The notes under the pieces were generated by a model. That model made no database searches. It had not been told where the DNA came from and saw nothing but the letters and a program-made list of their open reading frames with translations. A DNA stretch of 25,781 nt from a virus. Location: IMG/VR virus record IMGVR_UViG_3300025107_000099, positions 1-25,781 of that record. One strand, given 5' to 3'. How positions within the stretch are numbered: position 1 is the stretch's first letter; each line of letters starts with the position of its first letter. Below, in pieces: positions 12,773-25,485 of the stretch. A program made the position numbers and the translations under genes.

Positions 12773-13069
12773 TTAATTAGGTTTTTCTGGATTTATTAGG
12801 TTGCCATCTACATCAAATCGAATCTTATTATTGAATCTGTCATGTTCCTTATTATGGCATTCTCTACAAAGTAATTCCAAGTTCTCTTGATTAAAACTAA
12901 TCGATGAGTCATTAACATTCTCAATGGTCAGTCTTTCTTTGTGGTGAACTTCGATTCCGATTTGTCCACATCGCTCACAAAGCCCATTTACTGACATTAT
13001 TTTTATTTCACGAGCAGCTAGCCATGCGGGTGACTTATAGAAGTTATGCAGAACCTTTGGCTTTTTCAT
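12773..13069 (-). CDS. HNH endonuclease, packaging-associated
   Basis: A 98-residue nuclease with FYKSPAWLAAR near the N-terminus, a CERC zinc pair (31-34), VHHKE with the catalytic His pair (42-43), ENLELLCRECH with Asn63 and the second zinc pair (68, 71), and HNKEH ending in His76. This is the small phage HNH type which, in HK97-like cos phages, cooperates with the terminase in cutting DNA for packaging. The start lies 26 bases inside the end of metK in another frame. Normally the terminase genes follow directly; here two accessory genes intervene. Confidence 0.92.
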   Translation of the reverse strand: MKKPKVLHNFYKSPAWLAAREIKIMSVNGLCERCGQIGIEVHHKERLTIENVNDSSISFNQENLELLCRECHNKEHDRFNNKIRFDVDGNLINPEKPN

Positions 13070-14183
13070 ATGCTTCTTTTAGCTCTGCTGCTTTTGCTTC
13101 TACATGCTCCCATCGGACAGGTAAATCTTCGCGACCCATGTGTCCATAGGCTGCTAACTTTTGAAACTTCACTGTTTCAAACTCTAGTTCTTTCCTAATG
13201 TTTCCTGGTGTGAAGTTAAAGTATTGTTTAACCAACTCAAGCAAGTCTTCATCGGATAATTTCCCAGTTCCTAAGGTATCGATCGAGACAGCGATTGGAT
13301 TTGCTACTCCAATGGAATAGGACACACAAACTTCGCACGTGTCGGCCAATTCTGCCGCTACAACGGCTTTTGCTACATATCTGGCATAATAACTCGCACT
13401 GCGATCAACCTTGCTTACGTCCTTACCAGAAAAGGCACCACCACCATGCTTTGCATATCCACCATAAGTATCTACGATTATCTTTCTGCCAGTTAATCCT
13501 GAATCACCATAAGGACCACCAATGATGAATGCACCTGTAGGATTAATTAGAACATTGATACTAGTCAGATCCTTGCTGATCATTGGTTTGAGTACTTCCT
13601 CAATAATGATTTCTTTTGCGAGTGATAGGCTTGCTCCTGGTCTTGTTTGGGCTGAAACAATAATCGTGTCGTATGCAAAAGGTTGACCATCTACATATCT
13701 TACCGATACTTGGCACTTACCATCTGGACCAAAGATGTGGTTGTACTTAGCTTTTCTAAGTGCATCTACTTCTTTAGCAATCTCATGTGCAACTACAATC
13801 GGAAGTGGCATGAGCTCAGGAGTTTCATTGCATGCAAAACCATACATCATCCCCTGATCACCAGCACCCTGTTGATGATCTAGCGTTTCATTGACACCCT
13901 GTGCAATGTCTGGTGATTGTTTGGATATCTTTTCTAGGACACAAAACGTATCGTCATATCCGATGTCCTTGAGTACTTGTTTTGCAATATCTGAGTATTG
14001 AACGTTAGCTGTTGTTGTTACCTCTCCAAAGATAACAACTAAGTCATCTTTGATAGCTGTTTCAACTGCTACTCTTGCTGATTGATCTTGTTCAAAAATG
14101 GCATCCAGTATTGCATCACTGATTTGGTCACAGATTTTATCTGGATGTCCACTAAAGACCGATTCGCTTGTTATGATTTTCAT
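13044..14183 (-). CDS. metK: S-adenosylmethionine synthetase (methionine adenosyltransferase)
   Basis: A complete 379-residue enzyme that makes S-adenosylmethionine from methionine and ATP. Hallmarks: GHPDKICDQISDAILD (12-27; ATP-binding His13), GAGDQGMMYGFACNETPELM (about 107-126), FIIGGPYGDSGLTGRKIIVD, and GGGAFSGKDVSKVDRSASYY with the conserved Lys/Asp. No frameshift or missing motif is visible; length is near the bacterial norm of 380-400. MetK is a central host enzyme, so a second copy on a phage is notable. It follows a ParB-methyltransferase fusion and overlaps the HNH gene. The likely role is to supply cofactor for methylation of phage DNA, an inference. AGAGGA precedes the ATG. A hairpin terminator lies just upstream (14204-14228). 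Confidence 0.96.
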   Translation of the reverse strand: MKIITSESVFSGHPDKICDQISDAILDAIFEQDQSARVAVETAIKDDLVVIFGEVTTTANVQYSDIAKQVLKDIGYDDTFCVLEKISKQSPDIAQGVNETLDHQQGAGDQGMMYGFACNETPELMPLPIVVAHEIAKEVDALRKAKYNHIFGPDGKCQVSVRYVDGQPFAYDTIIVSAQTRPGASLSLAKEIIIEEVLKPMISKDLTSINVLINPTGAFIIGGPYGDSGLTGRKIIVDTYGGYAKHGGGAFSGKDVSKVDRSASYYARYVAKAVVAAELADTCEVCVSYSIGVANPIAVSIDTLGTGKLSDEDLLELVKQYFNFTPGNIRKELEFETVKFQKLAAYGHMGREDLPVRWEHVEAKAAELKEAYEKAKGSA

Positions 14184-15448: not shown

Positions 15449-16660
15449 CTATAGTGATAAATTTTGAAAGTCATCAATGTCATTAAGCGATAGCTTCTTA
15501 CCCTTTCGGATCAGATAGCAATTGTCACTTGATCCTTTGTGTCTTATATATCGTTTAACTATCACATCGACGAATCTCTCATCAAGTTCCATTAGATAAG
15601 ATTTTCTTTGAAGCTGATCGGATGCGATCATAGTTGATCCAGAACCACCGAACAAATCGAGTACATATTCATTAACTCTGGAGGAGTTTGCAATTGCTCG
15701 TCCACAAAGTTCAAGTGGTTTCATCGTTGGATGGTCATCATTTCGCTTAGGCTTGTTATATTCCCAGATGGTATCTTGTGTGCGGTCATCAATAAAGTAA
15801 TGAGCTGCACCTTCTTTCCATCCGTAAAGAATAGGTTCGTGTCTCCAGTGATAATCTTGTCTACCTAGTACTAAGGCATTCTTAACCCAGACTAAGCACT
15901 CCGCCAATTTGAATCCTGCATTCTTAAATGCATTTCTAAAGTTGATACCTTCTGTATCCGCATGACAGACATAGATGGCTCCACCAGGTTTGGTTGCTTC
16001 AAACATATTTGTGAATGCGTCATATAAAAAAAGATAGAAGCTGTTATCTTCCATCTTGTCATTCTTAATCTTGCCAGCTGTTCCTTCATAGTCCACATTA
16101 TATGGTGGATCTGTGAAGATCATATCAATCTTTTGTCCATCCAGGAGTTTTTGAACATCTTGTTTCTTAGTTGAGTCACCACACATGACTCTGTGATTAT
16201 CTAATAGATAGATATCACCTAATTCAGAATAGGGTGTTTCACTAACTTCATCAGAAGGATCGAAGTCATCATCACTCGCATTATCTGGGACATCTGACTC
16301 TAACTCTTCAAAACCAAATTGAAGCATATCAATATCGATATTCGAGAGTTCTTCTTCTAGTTTACTAAAATCCCAAGTAGCTAGTTCTGCTGTCTTGTTA
16401 TCTGCCAAACGAAAGGCCTTAATTTGCCCTTCTGTGAGGTCATCTGCAGTAATACAAGGAATAGTGGCCAATCCTAGTTTAAGGCTTGCTTTGAGCCTAG
16501 TGTGGCCGGCAATTATTACTAGATCCTTGGTGATCACTATCGGAACCTTGAATCCGAACTCTTTGATACTATTAGCTACAGCATCGACAGCAGCATCATT
16601 ATTTCTTGGGTTGTTTTCGTATATTAACAACTCCGAGGGTTTCTTCATCACTATGTTCAT
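15449..16660 (-). CDS. ParB-like nuclease domain fused to DNA adenine/cytosine-N4 methyltransferase
   Basis: A 403-residue fusion. Residues about 5-95 are a ParB/Srx-type domain with VIIAGHTRLKASLKLG (49-64). Residues about 150-375 are a beta-class DNA methyltransferase with FTDPPYNVDY (DPPY 184-187) and the SAM-binding VLDLFGGSGST (333-343), the motif order of N6-adenine or N4-cytosine enzymes. Such fusions are common in Firmicutes prophages, as orphan methylases that may protect phage DNA or mark packaging regions. The start overlaps the HTH gene by 62 bases. The ribosome binding site is weak, so an internal ATG (16648) is possible. No partner nuclease is adjacent. Confidence 0.92.
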   Translation of the reverse strand: MNIVMKKPSELLIYENNPRNNDAAVDAVANSIKEFGFKVPIVITKDLVIIAGHTRLKASLKLGLATIPCITADDLTEGQIKAFRLADNKTAELATWDFSKLEEELSNIDIDMLQFGFEELESDVPDNASDDDFDPSDEVSETPYSELGDIYLLDNHRVMCGDSTKKQDVQKLLDGQKIDMIFTDPPYNVDYEGTAGKIKNDKMEDNSFYLFLYDAFTNMFEATKPGGAIYVCHADTEGINFRNAFKNAGFKLAECLVWVKNALVLGRQDYHWRHEPILYGWKEGAAHYFIDDRTQDTIWEYNKPKRNDDHPTMKPLELCGRAIANSSRVNEYVLDLFGGSGSTMIASDQLQRKSYLMELDERFVDVIVKRYIRHKGSSDNCYLIRKGKKLSLNDIDDFQNLSL

Positions 16661-17117
16661 TAATCCAAGTTTCCTCGCCTTTTTCTATGCGTTTAAGCAT
16701 GATGTCAATTTCTTCTTTACGTTCGTTGTATTCACGTCCGAACTTTATTATTAATAAGTATTTGATAGCATTAAAATCGGGTAGAGCTTTCTTCTTAGTT
16801 TTCACAAGTCGCTTCTTTGTACCCGATGATGTTTCTTCAATGATGGTTTGTACTTCCTCATACTCCATACCAACAGCTCGTTGGAACAAGGCATCCATGA
16901 GCTTATACTTAAGTTCATCATCTCCATTGATAAATGCTTGATTTAGTCTGGGATGAGATCGTTTCAATTTGATAAGTGTGTTCTCACTTAGGTTCATGGC
17001 TTTGGCGATATCCTTTTGGATAATCCGCCTTGCTACCATATCTTGAATACTTTTTATTCGTTCATCAAGTACTCCATCAGCCTCCCATTGCTGATATGTA
17101 TCCAGTACCTTTGGCAC
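16599..17117 (-). CDS. Phage HTH protein, terminase-small-like or transcriptional regulator
   Basis: A 172-residue basic protein from GTG 17115-17117. Residues about 30-60, RRIIQKDIAKAMNLSENTLI onward, form a helix-turn-helix; later residues are charged helices (ERKEEIDIMLKRIEKGE). This type is found beside ParB-methyltransferase fusions in Firmicutes prophages and is variously called regulator or small terminase. Because a P27 small subunit accompanies terL elsewhere, a DNA-binding regulatory role is more likely. It is the first gene after the terminator at 17201-17233; its own promoter is not evident. Confidence 0.75.
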   Translation of the reverse strand: MPKVLDTYQQWEADGVLDERIKSIQDMVARRIIQKDIAKAMNLSENTLIKLKRSHPRLNQAFINGDDELKYKLMDALFQRAVGMEYEEVQTIIEETSSGTKKRLVKTKKKALPDFNAIKYLLIIKFGREYNERKEEIDIMLKRIEKGEETWINEHSDEETLGVVNIRKQPKK

Positions 17118-17482: not shown

Positions 17483-17764
17483 TTAATTACTTTGAACGTT
17501 TTGAGTTTTTATAAAATCAGCCAACTCGATTACTTTAAGGTTGTAATCTGCGACTAGAGCAGTTACTAGATTAACCAATTCGTTTTCAGCCTCAGATGGA
17601 TCATTAATTGTGTTTTTTAATGTTATCTCTTCTTCTAGATTCTTGCTTAGTAAAAGTTCAATGAATTTAGAAAAAGTTATAGATTCATCCATTTTGTATA
17701 CTTCAATTATTTCTTGATTCATAATTGCAATTCCTTCGGTTACTCTAGATATTGTTATTTCCAT
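17483..17764 (-). CDS. Small acidic partner protein of the PHP-ATPase
   Basis: A 93-residue acidic, largely helical protein (IIEVYKMDESITFSKFIELL, EAENELVNLVTALVADYNLK). No motif is recognised. Its ATG (17762-17764) lies 20 bases inside the end of the PHP-ATPase gene and has an AGGAGA site, so the two are coupled. Small acidic proteins paired with SMC-like ATPases in defence loci may be regulators or antitoxin-like partners; here that is inference. It is the last gene before the terminator at 17201-17233. Confidence 0.7.
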   Translation of the reverse strand: MEITISRVTEGIAIMNQEIIEVYKMDESITFSKFIELLLSKNLEEEITLKNTINDPSEAENELVNLVTALVADYNLKVIELADFIKTQNVQSN

Positions 17765-20216
17765 ATTCTTCTTCTCCTAAGATATTTCCATATTTTTTGT
17801 TTCTGTTCGAAAATGATGGTTTACCACCGTCTAATATCTTCATGATATTAAGTTTATCATCAACATTTTCAATAAAATAATTAGTGTATGTGATATTGCC
17901 ATCATTTTCAGCATAAATATAATTAAATGCATCACCATAAACTGCTACTGATGGGTTATGTGTAACAAAAATCAGCTGTTTATCTCGTTTTTTTGACTTA
18001 ATTAATGGAACGAGGTAATTACTTATATAATCATTATCAATATTATCTTCTGGTTGATCAAACATAAGAATGCTTTCAGAAAGATCAAAAATTAAATCAA
18101 GATAGGCAACGCTTTGCATGCCTAAGGATGCGTTAGATAAGTTGGTGATTGACCCCTCATCTAATAGTTTCAAAATATCATTGTAATTATTAATCTCTAA
18201 ATTTGGAACCGACTTGCTGTTCATTTGATAGAACTCTTTCTTAGGTAAAAATATATCACTGTTTATGAACTTTTTCAAACCATCTGTCATATTCGATACT
18301 GTAGATTTTAGATTTTTTTCACCATTAACATATTTTTCTAGTAATGTAATAGAATTCGTATCGTTCTTTAGCTTTGATATTGAGTTTGTTAATTCTTCAA
18401 CGAGCAGATCAGTAATGTTATCTGGAATTTTATATGTAGTAACAAACATATATTTATTTACAATGGCTTTACCTATTTGTGGAGCATCTAAAGTGAAATT
18501 ATTCAGCAAATGTTTTAATTTATTAAACTCAAGCAAAATTGAAAAGTTATTTTTTAGACTGGTCAATATTTGATTAATCTCACGTCTTAGATCTGTCATA
18601 ACTCTCTGCAGTTCAGTTTTCCCCTTATTTACTACACCAATTCTTGTGTTATGGTTGTCAAAAATGGAATTGTAGAGATCATATAATTTCTTGAAATATG
18701 CGTGATTTTTTTTCAAGACTGAGAGCTGAACACTTATACGTTCACTGTTTATTCCTGTTGAAGAAATATCGGTCTTTATTTTATTCAACATCGTTTCAGC
18801 ATTAGTGAAATATCCATCAATTGTGGTGAAGTTGAGTTTATTGTGAATAGTAAAAGTGAAGAAATCCAGTCTCCTAATTTGCTTGACTATTGAAGTTATG
18901 CTCTTGTAGTTTTTATCGTATGGTTTAACCCCTAGAGCAATAGATAGTACTAGTTCCAACTTTGATTTGTCATATGGTGCAAGTATCGGAAACTTACTAG
19001 AAATTGTTTGTAATGCTCTATCTGGGTTCTCGTAAACCTCTTTAATTTTATCCTGCTTTATTATAGCTATTGATGATAACTGTCCTTCTGAAAGTGGGAT
19101 TCCATCATAGTAATTACCAGAAATGTTTTTAATGTCAAATGCTTTATATTCTTTAATATCCAAACTCTCGCGATTACTTAATCTTTCAATAACAGATAGT
19201 AAAAGCGATTTACCGCTACCACGTTTCCCTACTATAACATTCAAACCAGGTGAAAATTGGATGGGATGTTGAACGCCTTTCATACTAAACTGTACGGAAC
19301 CAAGTATATTACCAGGAATAACCACTTCGTTATCAGTAGTTCTTATGATTCTCGACTTAGGATCAAGAACAGCCATTTCAAACGAATCAAAATATGTATC
19401 GTAAGATCCGAAAATGAAGTTATTCAAAACTGGTGAGTAAGGTTCGGAGTTGTGCCAATCACTAAAAGTAAAATATGAGAAATATGAACCGTAGTTAACA
19501 ATATACTCATACAATGCCTTCTCGTCATCTTCAAGCGTGTAGTTTACATCATGGATTCTTTTTCTGATATTATCGAGTAATGTTTTTCTATCTTGCTCTG
19601 TCTTATCATTAAGTATCTCATCAGCTCTTACTGAATGTGTATAAAAGTTTGCTGCCCATTCATTTTGGCTGATTTCATTAAAGCTCGGTCTAACATCATA
19701 TGCGCTAAAAATTTTATACATCGCAAATTTGTATATATCATCTTTAGAAATATCGTCGAGATACTTTAAAACATCAACAATCCCTTTCGCTTTATTACCT
19801 TCGGGTATAAGTATAAACTTCGTTTTTAACCGAAATAATCCAGCAATTATCTCACTTAATAATGGTTTTTTCCCGTCTTTGTAAAGTTCAGTAATAATAG
19901 GGTTTATTTTTGTCATATCGACATTTGGAGAAAAATATGTTCCCATTTGAAAAAAGTTATTAGTGTCTACATAAACATCTAACTCAACCCCATAAATCAG
20001 TCTAATATTTTTATCCATTATATAATCTGTCAGTTTCGAATAAAAATCACAATCGAAAACATTATGATCAGTCACACTAAAAACTTCAACACCAGCATTA
20101 AGCAATATGTTTGCAAAAGATTGTGCATCCATTTCTTTGACTCTACCATTATCCTTGTGTTTTGAAGCAAATGAATGCATATGTAAATCATACTTAAGCC
20201 ATTTCGATTTGTTCAT
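17745..20216 (-). CDS. PHP-domain/SMC-like ATPase, defence-type (TrlF-like)
   Basis: An 823-residue two-part protein. Residues 1 to about 280 are a PHP metal-dependent phosphoesterase domain: YDLHMHS (His12, His14), FSVTDHNVF (Asp50, His51), GVELD (Glu78) and FSDWHNS (Asp253, His255) give nearly the full PHP metal ligand set. From about 310 is an ABC/SMC-type ATPase: VIVGKRGSGKSLLL (Walker A 330-337), a long helical region about 430-650, then ILMFDQPEDNID (Walker B about 716-724) and FVTHNPS (switch His753). The plan resembles TrlF-family ATPases seen near restriction-modification genes. It probably couples DNA or RNA sensing by the ATPase to PHP nuclease or phosphatase action. GGAGGGG precedes the ATG. 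It is separated from the methyltransferase by a terminator (20252-20280); its own promoter is weak by eye (TATAAT at 20245-20250). Confidence 0.88.
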   Translation of the reverse strand: MNKSKWLKYDLHMHSFASKHKDNGRVKEMDAQSFANILLNAGVEVFSVTDHNVFDCDFYSKLTDYIMDKNIRLIYGVELDVYVDTNNFFQMGTYFSPNVDMTKINPIITELYKDGKKPLLSEIIAGLFRLKTKFILIPEGNKAKGIVDVLKYLDDISKDDIYKFAMYKIFSAYDVRPSFNEISQNEWAANFYTHSVRADEILNDKTEQDRKTLLDNIRKRIHDVNYTLEDDEKALYEYIVNYGSYFSYFTFSDWHNSEPYSPVLNNFIFGSYDTYFDSFEMAVLDPKSRIIRTTDNEVVIPGNILGSVQFSMKGVQHPIQFSPGLNVIVGKRGSGKSLLLSVIERLSNRESLDIKEYKAFDIKNISGNYYDGIPLSEGQLSSIAIIKQDKIKEVYENPDRALQTISSKFPILAPYDKSKLELVLSIALGVKPYDKNYKSITSIVKQIRRLDFFTFTIHNKLNFTTIDGYFTNAETMLNKIKTDISSTGINSERISVQLSVLKKNHAYFKKLYDLYNSIFDNHNTRIGVVNKGKTELQRVMTDLRREINQILTSLKNNFSILLEFNKLKHLLNNFTLDAPQIGKAIVNKYMFVTTYKIPDNITDLLVEELTNSISKLKNDTNSITLLEKYVNGEKNLKSTVSNMTDGLKKFINSDIFLPKKEFYQMNSKSVPNLEINNYNDILKLLDEGSITNLSNASLGMQSVAYLDLIFDLSESILMFDQPEDNIDNDYISNYLVPLIKSKKRDKQLIFVTHNPSVAVYGDAFNYIYAENDGNITYTNYFIENVDDKLNIMKILDGGKPSFSNRNKKYGNILGEEEYGNNNI

Positions 20217-20251
20217 TATATTATCCCCTCCTTGACTCGTCGTAATTATAT

Positions 20252-20280
20252 AAAAAAAACTCTATAAGATTATTATAGAG
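20252..20280 (-). terminator. Rho-independent terminator after the R-M operon
   Basis: Minus-strand CTCTATAA and TTATAGAG pair perfectly around a five-base loop and are followed by eight T residues. It lies 125 bases past the methyltransferase stop and 36 bases before the PHP-ATPase start, so the two defence units are probably transcribed separately. The 124 bases between it and the methyltransferase stop are AT-rich and hold nothing I can name. Confidence 0.85.
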
Positions 20281-20404
20281 CTAATACATGATAAATACAA
20301 AATTTATTTATATTTAACACATTCCAATATTCGTTTTTTTGAAGTAATCAAATACAAATTTTGTGATTTTGCCAGATGTTGAAAACATTCTTATGTCATT
20401 TGTA

Positions 20405-22027
20405 TTAATGTGTTCTTGATAATCGTCTGGTTTGCAATTTCTTCCAAATATTACGGAATTCCTTACATGTTTTATCACTAATTCCCAAAATATCAATCAA
20501 AATGACACTATCAATAAGATCCATCACAACTTCAATAGCACTTCCTTTGCGAATTAAATCGTCTACTTTTTTGAGTGTCTCTAGCAATAAAGCATTATCA
20601 ATATTATCGATAATAGGCAAATAAATATCTCCTACTTCACTCGGTAAAATTTCAAGTACTCCACCACCATAACTACGACCGTTAATTTCAGTGAATGTCA
20701 TAGATATGCTATTATAATAAGACAGCAATACTATATTTGGATTCACTCCTTCACGAAATTTTATTCTGTGCATAGTATCAGTCGATATCGCATTGATCTT
20801 ATTGATGACAAATTTAGGATATAGATTGTTTCTTCTTAAGAAAAAAGCGTCAGGAATCCAAATTGAAGGTACAACGTACCATTTATCACGTATTCTACAT
20901 TTATAACCAGTATTTGCTTCGTTATTTACACCATACTCGATGTACTTTTTGTACCCATCTTTCAAAAGATTATCATTTTCGGGAAAATGAACTAAATATG
21001 ATCTTCTACCTTTTTTGACATTAAATTCTGCATCACTTTTTGTATAGAAAATACCATGGACATGTGAACTTTTACCTATTAACGGTATACAAACTTCACT
21101 TAGATCGTAATTAATTTTAGTTTCATCAGTAACTGAAAAATATGAGTTGTTTCCAGTTGTGACACCTACATTGATTATCGCATAATCAGAAAATTTCTTA
21201 AAACGAGCATCTTTCTTTATGGAAGATATAGCCGAAATTTCACTGCTATCCACAAAGTATTTTGTCCATTTTTCTGAAGTATTATTTGTTTTTATAAAAG
21301 GTATAGTGTCAATATCTAGGTTATCAATATCAGAAACATTTGTCATTTGTATGACTCGGATTCCTTTATGTTTTAATCCTTTTTTTGCAATGAGAACTAC
21401 AACCTCTTGCTCAATGTCCGAAAATATTAACTCTGTAAATGTGAGCAAAGTAATCTCACTGTATTTAGAGATTAACAGATCACGCAATTGTCTAGCGTAT
21501 ACAACTTGTAGCAACTCTGCTGGTAAGACAAAAACCATTGTACCATTATTGCTCAAAAGGGTTGTTGATGCCACTACAAAGGCAACCCATGAATTTATTA
21601 GTTTATTAGGGACTAGTCCTTCATGAATTAGCATTTCTGACATTTCATTTCTTTGTAATTCTGTTAAATATTGATATCTGATATATGGTGGATTCCCTAT
21701 GATTAAATCAAATGAATTATTTATATTATCTAAGTAAAACTTAAAAAAATCTTCATGGACTATTTCTATATTAGATTTACTCCCATATTTTACAGAAAGC
21801 TTTGTGGTCTCTTCTTCGTTAATTTCAACTGCTGTAATCTTTGTACTTTTTCTCAATCCTGACTCAATTATTGCGTCTATAAAAACACCGTCACCGCAAC
21901 TCGGTTCAAGTACGTTTTTATAGTCGGATAGACGTATGAATTTGTTAACTATAGAAGTAGCTAAATCATACGGTGTATAATACGCTCCTCTTAGTTTGAT
22001 CTCTTCAGTATTACTCTTTAGCTTCAT
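20405..22027 (-). CDS. Eco57I-type adenine-N6 DNA methyltransferase
   Basis: A 540-residue enzyme. RGAYYTPYDLATSIV opens the methylase fold, VLEPSCGDGVF (39-49) binds SAM, and LIIGNPPYIRYQYL (NPPY 112-115) is the catalytic motif of gamma-class N6-adenine methyltransferases. Residues about 250-480 are the likely target recognition region, including INVGVTTGNNSYF; the C-terminus ends with a basic helix. It overlaps the type IIG gene by ATGA (22024-22027), so the two are translated together. It is probably the modification partner, or modifies the second strand or half-site. No nuclease motif of its own was seen. Confidence 0.92.
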   Translation of the reverse strand: MKLKSNTEEIKLRGAYYTPYDLATSIVNKFIRLSDYKNVLEPSCGDGVFIDAIIESGLRKSTKITAVEINEEETTKLSVKYGSKSNIEIVHEDFFKFYLDNINNSFDLIIGNPPYIRYQYLTELQRNEMSEMLIHEGLVPNKLINSWVAFVVASTTLLSNNGTMVFVLPAELLQVVYARQLRDLLISKYSEITLLTFTELIFSDIEQEVVVLIAKKGLKHKGIRVIQMTNVSDIDNLDIDTIPFIKTNNTSEKWTKYFVDSSEISAISSIKKDARFKKFSDYAIINVGVTTGNNSYFSVTDETKINYDLSEVCIPLIGKSSHVHGIFYTKSDAEFNVKKGRRSYLVHFPENDNLLKDGYKKYIEYGVNNEANTGYKCRIRDKWYVVPSIWIPDAFFLRRNNLYPKFVINKINAISTDTMHRIKFREGVNPNIVLLSYYNSISMTFTEINGRSYGGGVLEILPSEVGDIYLPIIDNIDNALLLETLKKVDDLIRKGSAIEVVMDLIDSVILIDILGISDKTCKEFRNIWKKLQTRRLSRTH

Positions 22028-25023
22028 TTGTTCCCCTCAATAAGTTTGAATATCATTCTTATTTGATTATTTATATTTTCTATCAATGCTTGCTTTTTAC
22101 TTTCAAGTATCATCGCTCTTTTACGTACCTTTTCATTTACTAAGTTAGTATTAATCTGTCTAATATGTTGAGCTGATTCTGTTATATTCCTATGAATTTC
22201 TTCCTCAAATTTATTACTTAAATCAAGCGGATATATCAATATTTGATTCAGAATTGATGTTCCTCTAGAATAGAACCCATTTTCAAAAGGACTGCCTAAG
22301 TCTCTTACTAATTCTTCTATTATTTCAGAATTTAACCATGCTTGAATATACTCCAAACTGTATGGACTACAATCTTTTACAGCTATAGCACAATAGCCTG
22401 CTGTTCCACCAGAAGCTATAAGCATATTATCTTCATCAATACAATACATTGGAGTGTCACTCAAAATTCGTACAATTATCTTTGTACGACTATTGAAAGA
22501 AGTCAATGCTTGAGTACGTCCATATTGGTACCAAGTATCGTGAGTACTATTTGGAACATCTCTAGTTCCAATTGTAGGATCTATTTGTTTTGGCACCAAT
22601 AAACTATAACAATCCATCAAGTATTCCCATGTTTTTGGATACATTTCAATCATTACACTCTTTTCGATCAAATTGCCACTTAGATCATATGGAAAAATAA
22701 TAAATTTGTCAGTAGACAATTTATCATATGTTGTAAAGCCTTTTTGATTACGCAAAGTAGGTTTAAAATAAGGTCTAAGGATCGATTTTTCGATATGATA
22801 TGTTTTCTTATTTCGGACCACTGATATAAGGCTGTCATTCTGATCACATATTTCAGATTGAGAGAACCAATATATAGGTTTCGGTCTTTCCGCTGATGTT
22901 TGAATTCCGTTAAAAATATCAACATAATTTATGATGCTCTTCATACAATGATTATATGCTTCTTTAAATGCTACAGAGTGTAAGCTCCATGCATCATTAG
23001 CAATGTTTTCCACACTGATTTCACCAGATAGTAGCACTTTACTAAGTAGTAAATCATCAAGATTGCTAACTTTGTTATATTTAAGTGTTGAATTATCAAC
23101 TTTCTTTTTTGAGGCAAAGAATAGCGATGTATATGTTGTCTTGTCCTCAAAAAGCTGTGTATCACCAAAATCAAACACTTCGATGCTCGATAACTCAGAT
23201 ACAAGTATTTCTCTTAACATAATACCCGAGTTTATTTTCATAAATTTGTTTGGAATTATAAAACCCAAGACACCATTGTCTCTCAACAAATGAATTGATC
23301 TTTCAACAAACAAAAAGTATTTGTCAAACTGCTTGTATGCCGCCTGATAATTTTGTTTGTAGTACTCAATTTCTATTGGACTTAATAGTTTATACATTCC
23401 CTCTGTATTGACATAGGGTGGGTTACCAACTATTACATCGAATCCAGAAAAATCATTAAACTTGGTCCAACTAAACGGAACAATTGAGAATTCATCCTGT
23501 GAGGTAATAGAATCATTATCGAACACATTAGTATTAACCAGTGAATTCCCAAATAAAATATTATTATCAAGCTTTGGTAATAGTGATGTTGATTTATCAA
23601 GTGTCGCAGATGTTTCACCTTCAAGCAGCTTAATTAACAGTGAGAATTTCGATACTTCAACTGCTTGAAGGTCTATATCTACACCATACATACAGTTAAT
23701 CAATATTTTTCTTTTGTCAGCGAATGTTAATTTAGGAAAACCAGATTCAGAGAACTCAATTGAAGTCGGTTCATTTTCTTCATACCATTCAACACAGTAT
23801 TCTTGCAATTGAGAATACATCTCGACTAAAAAGACCCCTGAGCCGCAGCTTATATCAGCGAAGCGAAGTTTGACAATATCTGATGGTGTTAATCCATTCA
23901 CCTTTCTATCTAGTACGTTTTTCACAATAGTTCGTACTATTTCAATAGGAGTTGATATTATAGATTTATCAACATAGTCTTTTTTCTTCAATAAAACAAT
24001 TTCATCGGCAATGATGGATATTTTTTCAGTAATAAATAATTCGTATATTTTGCCCAATATGCTTGGTTCAATAATATTAAAAAGATATGGGCTCTCTGGA
24101 TAATATAGTTCCTTAATAATGTTATAAATTACCAAATTATTCAAATCAAACATTATTCCTTGGCCGCTAAAGATGCCTGAATTGAATCGAGCATCAGCAT
24201 CTTTGAAAAGCTCATTTAGTTTATTAAGTCCTAGATCAATATCATCAAAACTGCTTTTAAGTTGATGGTATGTAGATATGTTTCGATCCTCACATATACG
24301 CAAAAAAATGAGCTTATTAATAAACCTTTGAATTTCATCATCTAGATAATCAAGGTTTGAATACATAGCATAATTTGTGTTGACTAGGTTTTTTGCAAGC
24401 GAAACACGCCAATTATTCATTTGGTTTAAAAAGTACTTATCAATTGGGAGTATCGTTCTTGATAGTTCAAAAGAACCTTCAAGAATACTATCAAATTCAC
24501 CACTGTAGACGATGTCCTTTGATATAATGCCTTTAATCTCATCGTATCTTGTTATATACTCGGTGTAATGGAATATCTTGTATCTTGATTTGCTTACAGA
24601 GTCAGTATTTAACGGGGGTTGTTTTGTATCGTAAATTACCAAATATTCGAAATTCGTCAATATTGCAATTTTATGATTGGCGTTCCATCCGTACTTTCTT
24701 GTTTGCAATGCTGAATTATCGGAGTGTAATATATCCACCGAAGGTTTCTTTGCCTCAACGAATAATTTACTTATACCTCTTAATGTCAAAGTATAATCAG
24801 GTCTAGACATGTTCTCTTCATATTTTTCAACAACAACCTCTTTATACTGTGGTTTATTACCAATACTGTTATAAACATCCCAACCTAAAAACAAAAGTAA
24901 CTTGTCAATATACTCAAGTCTGCAGGAAGTTTCATTAAATGCGTTTAATGGATTTTTATAGTATTCAATATTTTCACTAAATCTATCGATTATAATTTGA
25001 AAATCCTCTTTTGTTATAAGCAT
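22024..25023 (-). CDS. Type IIG-like restriction and methylation protein
   Basis: A 999-residue single-chain enzyme from ATG 25021-25023, which has GAGAGGG upstream; a TTG at 25038 overlaps the leader. Residues 1-150 form a PD-(D/E)xK nuclease: SRPDYTLTLRG (Asp76) and LFVEAKKPS (Glu90, Lys92). Residues about 200-350 are a helical connector. The N6-adenine methyltransferase follows with FADISCGSGVFLVEMY (motif I, about 388-403) and VIVGNPPYVNTEG (NPPY 534-537). From about 680 is a target recognition region (IFNGIQTSAERPKPIYWFSQ), and a coiled coil ends the protein. It cleaves unmodified DNA near its site while the paired enzyme protects self DNA. No fusion break or stop is seen. Confidence 0.92.
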   Translation of the reverse strand: MLITKEDFQIIIDRFSENIEYYKNPLNAFNETSCRLEYIDKLLLFLGWDVYNSIGNKPQYKEVVVEKYEENMSRPDYTLTLRGISKLFVEAKKPSVDILHSDNSALQTRKYGWNANHKIAILTNFEYLVIYDTKQPPLNTDSVSKSRYKIFHYTEYITRYDEIKGIISKDIVYSGEFDSILEGSFELSRTILPIDKYFLNQMNNWRVSLAKNLVNTNYAMYSNLDYLDDEIQRFINKLIFLRICEDRNISTYHQLKSSFDDIDLGLNKLNELFKDADARFNSGIFSGQGIMFDLNNLVIYNIIKELYYPESPYLFNIIEPSILGKIYELFITEKISIIADEIVLLKKKDYVDKSIISTPIEIVRTIVKNVLDRKVNGLTPSDIVKLRFADISCGSGVFLVEMYSQLQEYCVEWYEENEPTSIEFSESGFPKLTFADKRKILINCMYGVDIDLQAVEVSKFSLLIKLLEGETSATLDKSTSLLPKLDNNILFGNSLVNTNVFDNDSITSQDEFSIVPFSWTKFNDFSGFDVIVGNPPYVNTEGMYKLLSPIEIEYYKQNYQAAYKQFDKYFLFVERSIHLLRDNGVLGFIIPNKFMKINSGIMLREILVSELSSIEVFDFGDTQLFEDKTTYTSLFFASKKKVDNSTLKYNKVSNLDDLLLSKVLLSGEISVENIANDAWSLHSVAFKEAYNHCMKSIINYVDIFNGIQTSAERPKPIYWFSQSEICDQNDSLISVVRNKKTYHIEKSILRPYFKPTLRNQKGFTTYDKLSTDKFIIFPYDLSGNLIEKSVMIEMYPKTWEYLMDCYSLLVPKQIDPTIGTRDVPNSTHDTWYQYGRTQALTSFNSRTKIIVRILSDTPMYCIDEDNMLIASGGTAGYCAIAVKDCSPYSLEYIQAWLNSEIIEELVRDLGSPFENGFYSRGTSILNQILIYPLDLSNKFEEEIHRNITESAQHIRQINTNLVNEKVRKRAMILESKKQALIENINNQIRMIFKLIEGNK

Positions 25024-25042
25024 GGTAAACCCTCTCAATTTC

Positions 25043-25052
25043 TACTGCAGTA
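25043..25052. promoter_or_regulatory. Palindrome TACTGCAGTA after the R-M promoter
   Basis: A perfect 10-base palindrome about 12 bases downstream of the -10, where a repressor would block transcription. Its half-sites TACTG/CAGTA are those of the cassette operator at 2217-2230, without the four-base spacer. Confidence 0.35.
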
Positions 25053-25063
25053 AATATAAACCT

Positions 25064-25072
25064 ATTATAACA
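25064..25072 (-). promoter_or_regulatory. Extended -10 promoter of the R-M operon
   Basis: Minus-strand TGTTATAAT (TGnTATAAT), about 40 bases before the type IIG start. No strong -35. It lets the restriction genes be expressed independently of phage late transcription. Confidence 0.65.
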
Positions 25073-25086
25073 TGAACAACAAGATT

Positions 25087-25485
25087 CTATCCCAAAGTTT
25101 TATACCATGATCTCACTATTTTATTAACATCAATTCTATTAGACTTGTTATGTACAACACCAGAAATCCATTCATCAAGTGTTAAAGCCTCTTTTATACC
25201 AACACTCTTCTTAAAATCATTGTATTTTAAGATAATATTTGAATATCTTTTAATCTGTTTTTCAACAAGGTCTATCTTATCCAACCAATACAACAACTCA
25301 CTATCACCTGATGAACGTGAACCAGATGATCCAATTCGATCATAAGAAACACCTTTATATCTAATAAGCTTCATATTATAGAACTCTAGTTTTTCCTGGA
25401 GTTCCTTTTCTTTTCTCATCGCTCTTCTTACATCGTCAATCCACCTGTAAAAGGGTTCGTTTAATCCACGATTCGAATGACTCAT
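25087..25485 (-). CDS. DUF1492/ArpU-like phage regulator candidate
   Basis: A 133-residue basic protein from ATG 25483-25485, ten bases after a perfect AGGAGG; a TTG upstream would lie on that site. It opens with FYRWIDDVRRAMRKEKEL coiled helices, then GVSYDRIGSSGSRSSGDSEL, resembling the SYD..G.S.G element of DUF1492/RinA/ArpU-type regulators, which activate late genes through a sigma-70 region 4-like C-terminus. That C-terminus is not obvious here: the end reads ALTLDEWISGVVHNKSNRID. The protein may be a divergent member or a shorter relative. The start lies inside the preceding gene by 50 bases. Late regulators lie just before packaging genes, which fits but for the inserted block. Confidence 0.7.
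   Translation of the reverse strand: MSHSNRGLNEPFYRWIDDVRRAMRKEKELQEKLEFYNMKLIRYKGVSYDRIGSSGSRSSGDSELLYWLDKIDLVEKQIKRYSNIILKYNDFKKSVGIKEALTLDEWISGVVHNKSNRIDVNKIVRSWYKTLG

Follow-up and report, generated by a model that had tools for sequence, protein, structure and literature searches.

The putative four-gene defence block of this phage is best explained, with a rough probability of slightly above one half, as two independent and exchangeable defence modules: an Eco57I-type restriction-modification (R-M) pair and a Ppl-like nuclease-ATPase with an obligate small partner that would restrain or position it, so that the DNA ends made by restriction would give synergy without dependence. The evidence comes from the layout of the block, from the conserved motifs of the ATPase and its coupling with a small acidic gene at 38 loci, and from the comparison of related phages in which the modules are exchanged.

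Layout of the block and its two transcription units

The window, which is the whole stretch of DNA analysed, is a phage record of 25.8 kb (IMG/VR) whose carrier is a temperate phage of low-G+C Bacillota; a megablast search with the whole phage gave no match. The four genes are all on the minus strand and lie between a terminase small subunit gene and the gene of a conserved phage protein (Table 1): the R-M pair is followed, past a terminator, by a PHP-SMC/ABC ATPase and a small acidic protein. The initial annotation had described this block at the same place, as defence-type cargo arranged in two transcription units next to the packaging-side genes, and in these respects it was right; the "phage regulator" that it put on the right flank was a guess only, the protein found there having no Pfam family and being unclassified. 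An Rfam scan of the block gave no match.

The phage also encodes MetK (S-adenosylmethionine synthetase; window 13044-14183, minus strand; 2e-121 to solved enzymes), a phage-made supply of the methyl donor, whose family is entered in PHROGs as of unknown function; the gene is kept in the related phages L004, L099 and L101 and is located near a ParB-methyltransferase gene. This ParB_N-N6/N4 methyltransferase fusion (window 15449-16660, minus strand) lies directly behind the terminase small subunit and is conserved across the related phages read.

Table 1. Features of the defence block and its borders; positions are those of the window.
Feature	Position	Strand	Remarks
Right hotspot border: conserved phage protein, 133-140 aa, without known family	25087..25485	-	3' of a DnaD-like gene; homologues adjoin restriction genes in 9 related phage contigs
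Type IIG restriction-methyltransferase, Eco57I-like, 999 aa	22024..25023	-	HSDR_N PD-ExK nuclease, Eco57I N6-MTase, TaqI-like specificity domain; PADLOC PDLC03604, 8e-249
Companion Eco57I-type adenine methyltransferase, 540 aa	20405..22027	-	M_Eco57I_C, 1e-38; PADLOC PDLC03267, 4e-175
Candidate promoter of the PHP unit: TTGTAT, 17 nt, TATAAT	20272..20300	-	-10 box inside the terminator stem
Intrinsic terminator: CTCTATAA-TAATC-TTATAGAG-T8	20252..20282	-	between the R-M unit and the PHP unit; L004 and L008 have the same stem
Fusion protein of 823 aa: PHP nuclease domain (about 1-260) and SMC/Rad50/AriA-type ABC ATPase	17745..20216	-	short-form relative of Ppl/TrlF/PDC-M49A
Small acidic partner, 93 aa, pI 4.2	17483..17764	-	overlaps the ATPase stop by 20 nt; RBS GGAGAAG within the ATPase gene
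Left hotspot border: terminase small subunit	16599..17117	-	phrog_309, 3.5e-19

The restriction half is an ordinary and complete Eco57I-type type II R-M pair, as predicted from its sequence. The translation of the IIG enzyme contains the PD..EAK, CGSG and NPPY motifs, and its ATG at 25023, located behind GAGAGGG, is preferred as the start over a TTG at 25038; the start of the companion methyltransferase overlaps the IIG stop in an ATGA coupling. PADLOC labels the two proteins REase_MTase_IIG and MTase_II with the E-values of Table 1. The pair shares with the Eco57I type IIG systems the R-M protein of about 1000 aa, in which a PD-(D/E)xK nuclease, an N6-methyltransferase and a specificity domain are joined in one chain, and the separate adenine methyltransferase of about 540 aa, with all motifs present. 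Domains, motifs and PADLOC matches agree with the earlier description of a IIG-like enzyme with a coupled Eco57I-type methyltransferase; the idea that the pair itself is unusual was dropped, its layout being textbook Eco57I.

The two units are separated by a terminator whose 8-bp stem (20280-20260) is perfect and AU-rich, with 2 G-C pairs, and is followed by 8 T; it folds with -9.9 kcal/mol (z -3.2 vs shuffles). A consensus terminator scan missed this stem because it asks for 3 G-C pairs. The perfect terminator reported initially is thus real, and the same stem is found in two related phages. A promoter upstream of the PHP gene is speculative: the candidate recognised in the sequence has a weak -35 box (3/6) and is below the threshold of the consensus scan. 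The promoter/terminator element (window 20252-20300) is conserved in three phages.

The PHP-ATPase and its small acidic partner

In the window ATPase, Pfam recognises AAA_21, SMC_N and a weak PHP domain, while the NCBIfam matches (TrlF, Spaf_1101 and Ppl) are all well under the cut-off; phage and plasmid protein searches returned only distant TrlF-like matches. The protein is related to Ppl, TrlF, PDC-M49A and mad3, most of which are families with a defence role or candidates for one. In the PHP domain, H12, H14, H51, E78 and D253 are invariant among 14 divergent relatives, as are G335, K336, G699, D720 and H753 of the ATPase, which include the Walker A/B motifs and the H-loop, and a C-terminal G-G...R...Y; H255 is kept in 11 of the 14. 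Position 139 is a Glu in the window and a His in 7 of the 14 relatives, which explains why the metal ligand set had been called "almost complete": the "missing" ligand is Glu139. The ligand set and both Walker motifs are therefore as initially annotated, and the numbering of His12/His14 and Lys336 is correct. A family-profile search indicated AriA (2e-12), SMC and Rad50 as the nearest solved ATPase heads. The AlphaFold2 models of the ATPase and of the small protein are poor (pLDDT 43.6 and 52.5, from shallow alignments of 7 and 6 rows); the best solved neighbour of the PHP part of the low-confidence ATPase model is RNase AM. These models were discarded as a structural test of the small protein or of a complex, being too poor beyond the resemblance of the PHP domain and the ATPase head.

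The small gene is a genuine and conserved partner of the ATPase. Loci were compiled by profile searches in genomes of the class, the phylum and two orders of related hosts, together with plasmid and viral records, and they span Bacilli, Mollicutes, Alphaproteobacteria and viral contigs; the near-identical window, L003, L007 and L008 were counted as one locus. The 3' side was readable at 38 loci whose PHP-ATPase is either short (670-858 aa) or split, and at all of them a small acidic ORF of 84-136 aa follows at the 3' end of the ATPase gene on the same strand, nearly always overlapping it. Where measured by script, these ORFs start from -80 to +3 nt relative to the ATPase stop and have a pI of 4.1-5.4. 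Such an ORF is found behind 20 of the 244 other large ORFs of those loci (8%), and a chance overlap was discarded as an explanation on this comparison. An alignment (A3) was the starting point, so the locus set is partly self-selected; the loci added after it behave alike. None of the eight relatives of the longer TrlF kind has a partner ORF; seven of them are long and TrlF-like (869-1059 aa), and the eighth is a divergent protein of 833 aa, whose lack of a partner makes length alone an imperfect definition of the class.

In four loci the PHP and ATPase parts are separate adjacent genes that precede the small gene (L066:6123-8805; L067:5988-8590; L069:5945-8678; L078:6402-8970; TGA read as Trp). 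When 392 genomes were searched with a profile built from one small-protein subgroup, nine strong matches were obtained, each next to an ATPase, although most of these are members of the profile; with this one-subgroup profile no orphan small gene was seen in those genomes. Two weak matches lie away from an ATPase; the one read out, a supposed orphan in a Mycoplasma-type genome, was dropped, as it is among housekeeping genes and has no PHP-ATPase in its surroundings.

Between the closest phages, dN/dS is 0.10-0.15 for the ATPase gene and 0.07-0.27 for its small neighbour, which indicates purifying selection on both. The small proteins have diverged too far for their sequences to prove a shared ancestry, and their equivalence is based on position, size and acidity: profile-profile tests with reversed controls linked the window protein to none of the others and joined only two subgroups of other loci (51%), and a solved-structure search with the small-protein profile gave no match. 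The initial annotation had also named as a refuting observation that homologues of the two proteins never co-occur; at the 38 loci, a small acidic ORF always accompanies the ATPase. In this branch of PHP-ATPases the small partner was previously unrecognised.

Comparison with known systems

The two-gene layout is already catalogued in PADLOC as a candidate defence system, PDC-M49, in which the gene of a PHP-ATPase has an overlapping gene for a protein of 94-135 aa immediately downstream; the window has this layout, with an acidic protein within a 90-135-aa range, and the pairs of Phaeobacter and Rhizobium plasmids share with it the 20-nt overlap. The PDC-M49A model, of about 675 aa vs 823 aa of the window ATPase, gives the latter only partial matches (6e-11, vs 7e-260 for Phaeobacter), and PDC-M49B matches neither the window protein nor any of the 15 further proteins in the first small-protein set; L088, L089 and L080 do match it. 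Near-perfect PDC-M49A and PDC-M49B pairs were found in Alphaproteobacterial plasmids (Phaeobacter, Rhizobium) and in one Bacillota genome, while the window pair and most pairs of Bacilli and Mollicutes fall outside the models. By sequence, the window pair is a divergent variant with PDC-M49 architecture and, by PADLOC's own test, a non-member. The literature search found no paper on PDC-M49 and no experiment on any member of the PHP-ATPase/small-protein family.

Among characterized proteins, Ppl shares the PHP nuclease domain and the SMC-like ATPase, and its C-terminal half aligns with the window protein (1.6e-19); in contrast to the pair, which always has its partner, Ppl is a single gene. 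Ppl is reported as a PHP 3'-5' DNA exonuclease-ATPase that senses DNA 3' ends and is released by nucleotide depletion together with 3'-OH ends (PMC12904381). The window protein reaches 69.4 bits against a curated Ppl cut-off of 1000, and the best NCBIfam match, TrlF (3e-66), which has the same domain order, gives 224.9 bits against a cut-off of 350; with scores so far under the cut-offs, the Ppl mechanism is transferred by analogy. TrlF proteins are longer and lack the small overlapping partner; their long members also adjoin restriction and BREX genes. In the literature, TrlF was found only in a temperature-restriction operon, the Photorhabdus TRL operon, in which trlF stands with trlG (AlbA_2) and a 79-aa trlR (PMC7554251).

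Two other systems are similar in part. PrrC/RloC are ABC-ATPase nucleases that can adjoin restriction genes; they carry an anticodon-nuclease domain, in place of which the window enzyme has PHP, and most PHP-ATPase relatives have no restriction neighbours. AAA_13 is the Pfam family that includes PrrC-like ATPases, and Pfam found no AAA_13 match in the window ATPase. By analogy, Ppl appears the better functional counterpart. The ATPase head has its nearest solved relative in AriA of PARIS, a system in which an AriA-like ATPase releases a tRNA-cleaving effector, AriB, whereas in the window the nuclease is fused and the partner has only 93 aa, and no AriB effector gene is present in the block.

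The AriA-like head, as in PARIS, is one of the observations that would fit an abortive-infection toxin-antitoxin, in which the small protein is antitoxin to a PHP domain of the RNase AM type whose target in the host is RNA or a small molecule, and DNA ends play no role. RNase AM as the best solved PHP neighbour, the translational coupling and the strong acidity of the small protein also point to it. We regard it as improbable, considering that the confidence of the model is low, that the small gene lies downstream, the reverse of most antitoxins, and that Ppl, with the same PHP and ATPase layout, is reported to act on DNA.

Restriction linkage, phage hotspot and proposed function

Restriction genes are directly beside the pair, or within two genes of it, in about 7 of the 38 loci, and they are linked to it in all phages of the family that carry the pair. 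Their types are Eco57I (window), AlwI (L004), DpnII (L010), a ResIII-Eco57I fusion (L043), an EcoRI methylase with GmrSD/HNH (L062) and HsdR (L065, L072). One BREX locus (L096) and looser neighbours (Mrr, Dcm, Schlafen-type helicase, HerA, AAA_13) were also found, while most Mollicute pairs stand alone. In the BREX locus, a viral contig (L096:5998-8370), PglZ and BrxL are directly upstream of the PHP-ATPase, whose reading frame is interrupted by a single stop close to the 3' end. Restriction also accompanies the long form in L057:1-7777, where the gene of a long TrlF (939 aa) comes after those of an Eco57I-type IIG/MTase pair and of a PLD-like protein.

The lone Mollicute pairs, several of which are among housekeeping genes, could mean that the pair does not serve defence and is an enzyme of phage or host DNA metabolism with a chaperone-like small partner, placed in the hotspot by chance. 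This is unlikely in view of the patchy distribution, of the recurrent defence neighbourhoods (restriction, BREX, Schlafen-type helicase and TIR-like genes) and of the kinship with Ppl, a tested defence protein.

Related phage contigs were found via the two border genes and then read, and only the lineages with a readable interval were counted; genes were identified by local BLAST and, where run, Pfam, those of type I and cytosine-methyltransferase systems by eye. Restriction or DNA-methyltransferase genes adjoin the border protein in 10 of the 10 lineages read and belong to at least five types: Eco57I-type (window group and L099), AlwI/D12 (L004), type I (L103, L104, L106), cytosine-methyltransferase based (L105, L120) and DpnII/D12 (L108, L109). 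The restriction system is usually followed by a changeable second module, which is the PHP-ATPase with its small protein, an AAA_13 ATPase with a RAMA-domain protein (L099) or, as judged by eye, an AbiH-like protein (L104) or an exonuclease-like protein (L106). In L099:9775-12999 the IIG/MTase pair is as in the window, and the place of the PHP pair is taken by an ATPase of the AAA_13 type (739 aa) and a protein of 328 aa whose C-terminus is RAMA-like and whose N-terminus is apparently a nuclease. In the near-identical phage L008, three extra genes (230, 131 and 375 aa; L008:8429-10668) separate the small gene from the terminase gene, and the two of them tested have no Pfam family.

The DNA of the window resembles that of L004 as far as 20331 and then from 25256 onwards; hence, the exchange was confined to the restriction cassette, and the PHP unit kept its terminator. 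The PHP pair is 94% identical in the two phages, though the restriction genes switch from Eco57I-type to AlwI-type, and the best reading is that it is an exchangeable, independently transcribed defence cargo.

These data bear on the proposal of the initial annotation that the ATPase is a guard of the PrrC/RloC kind, silenced by the restriction enzyme or monitoring it and fired by an anti-restriction factor. PrrC is described as silenced by its linked type I enzyme (PMC2610378). The constant presence of restriction at the hotspot, usually with a second module and once with an AAA_13-type ATPase, speaks for such a guard, as do the unrelated loci where the ATPase stands beside DpnII/D12, type ISP-like, EcoRI-methylase/GmrSD and type I systems and the long TrlF relatives beside type I and IIG systems. 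On the other hand, about 30 of the 38 pairs, mostly from Mollicutes, have no restriction neighbour, the pair does not change with the restriction type, the restriction partners have no common subunit that a guard could bind, and the unit has its own terminator/promoter region and no PrrC/RloC-type match. Guarding is therefore unlikely; the pair prefers defence neighbourhoods in which restriction is optional and, with restriction genes at so few loci, it is not an obligate restriction guard. Of the earlier idea of R-M with an accessory ATPase, the combination of restriction with a changeable second module stands for this phage family, while the guard logic is unsupported and not needed.

In the preferred reading of two independent modules, a dimer of ATPase heads would sense infection through DNA ends and/or a fall in nucleotide levels, the cues reported for Ppl, and would license the PHP site to degrade phage nucleic acid. 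The small acidic protein would be an obligate subunit and dedicated regulator that restrains or positions the nuclease, and restriction by the first module would supply extra ends to the PHP-ATPase. This proposed feeding of ends, drawn by analogy, fits the frequent but optional company of restriction better than a guard that has to be held by one particular restriction complex.

A wider proposal, possible but doubtful in its full extent, is that of a broad and previously unconnected two-component immune family, formed by a PHP-SMC ATPase, sometimes split, and an obligate acidic switch protein, which in phages would be joined to interchangeable restriction and triggered by restriction-made ends or by restriction failure. 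The analysis turns a hunch on one locus into a prediction at the family level: every short PHP-ATPase of this kind would have a small acidic partner, which is not modelled by Pfam, NCBIfam and PHROGs, nor by PADLOC outside the PDC-M49 core. Since the partner is universal among these loci, the smallest unit for cloning and testing comprises both genes; and the phage hotspot, with its constant restriction and changing second module, offers a natural experiment that reveals the weapons combined with restriction.
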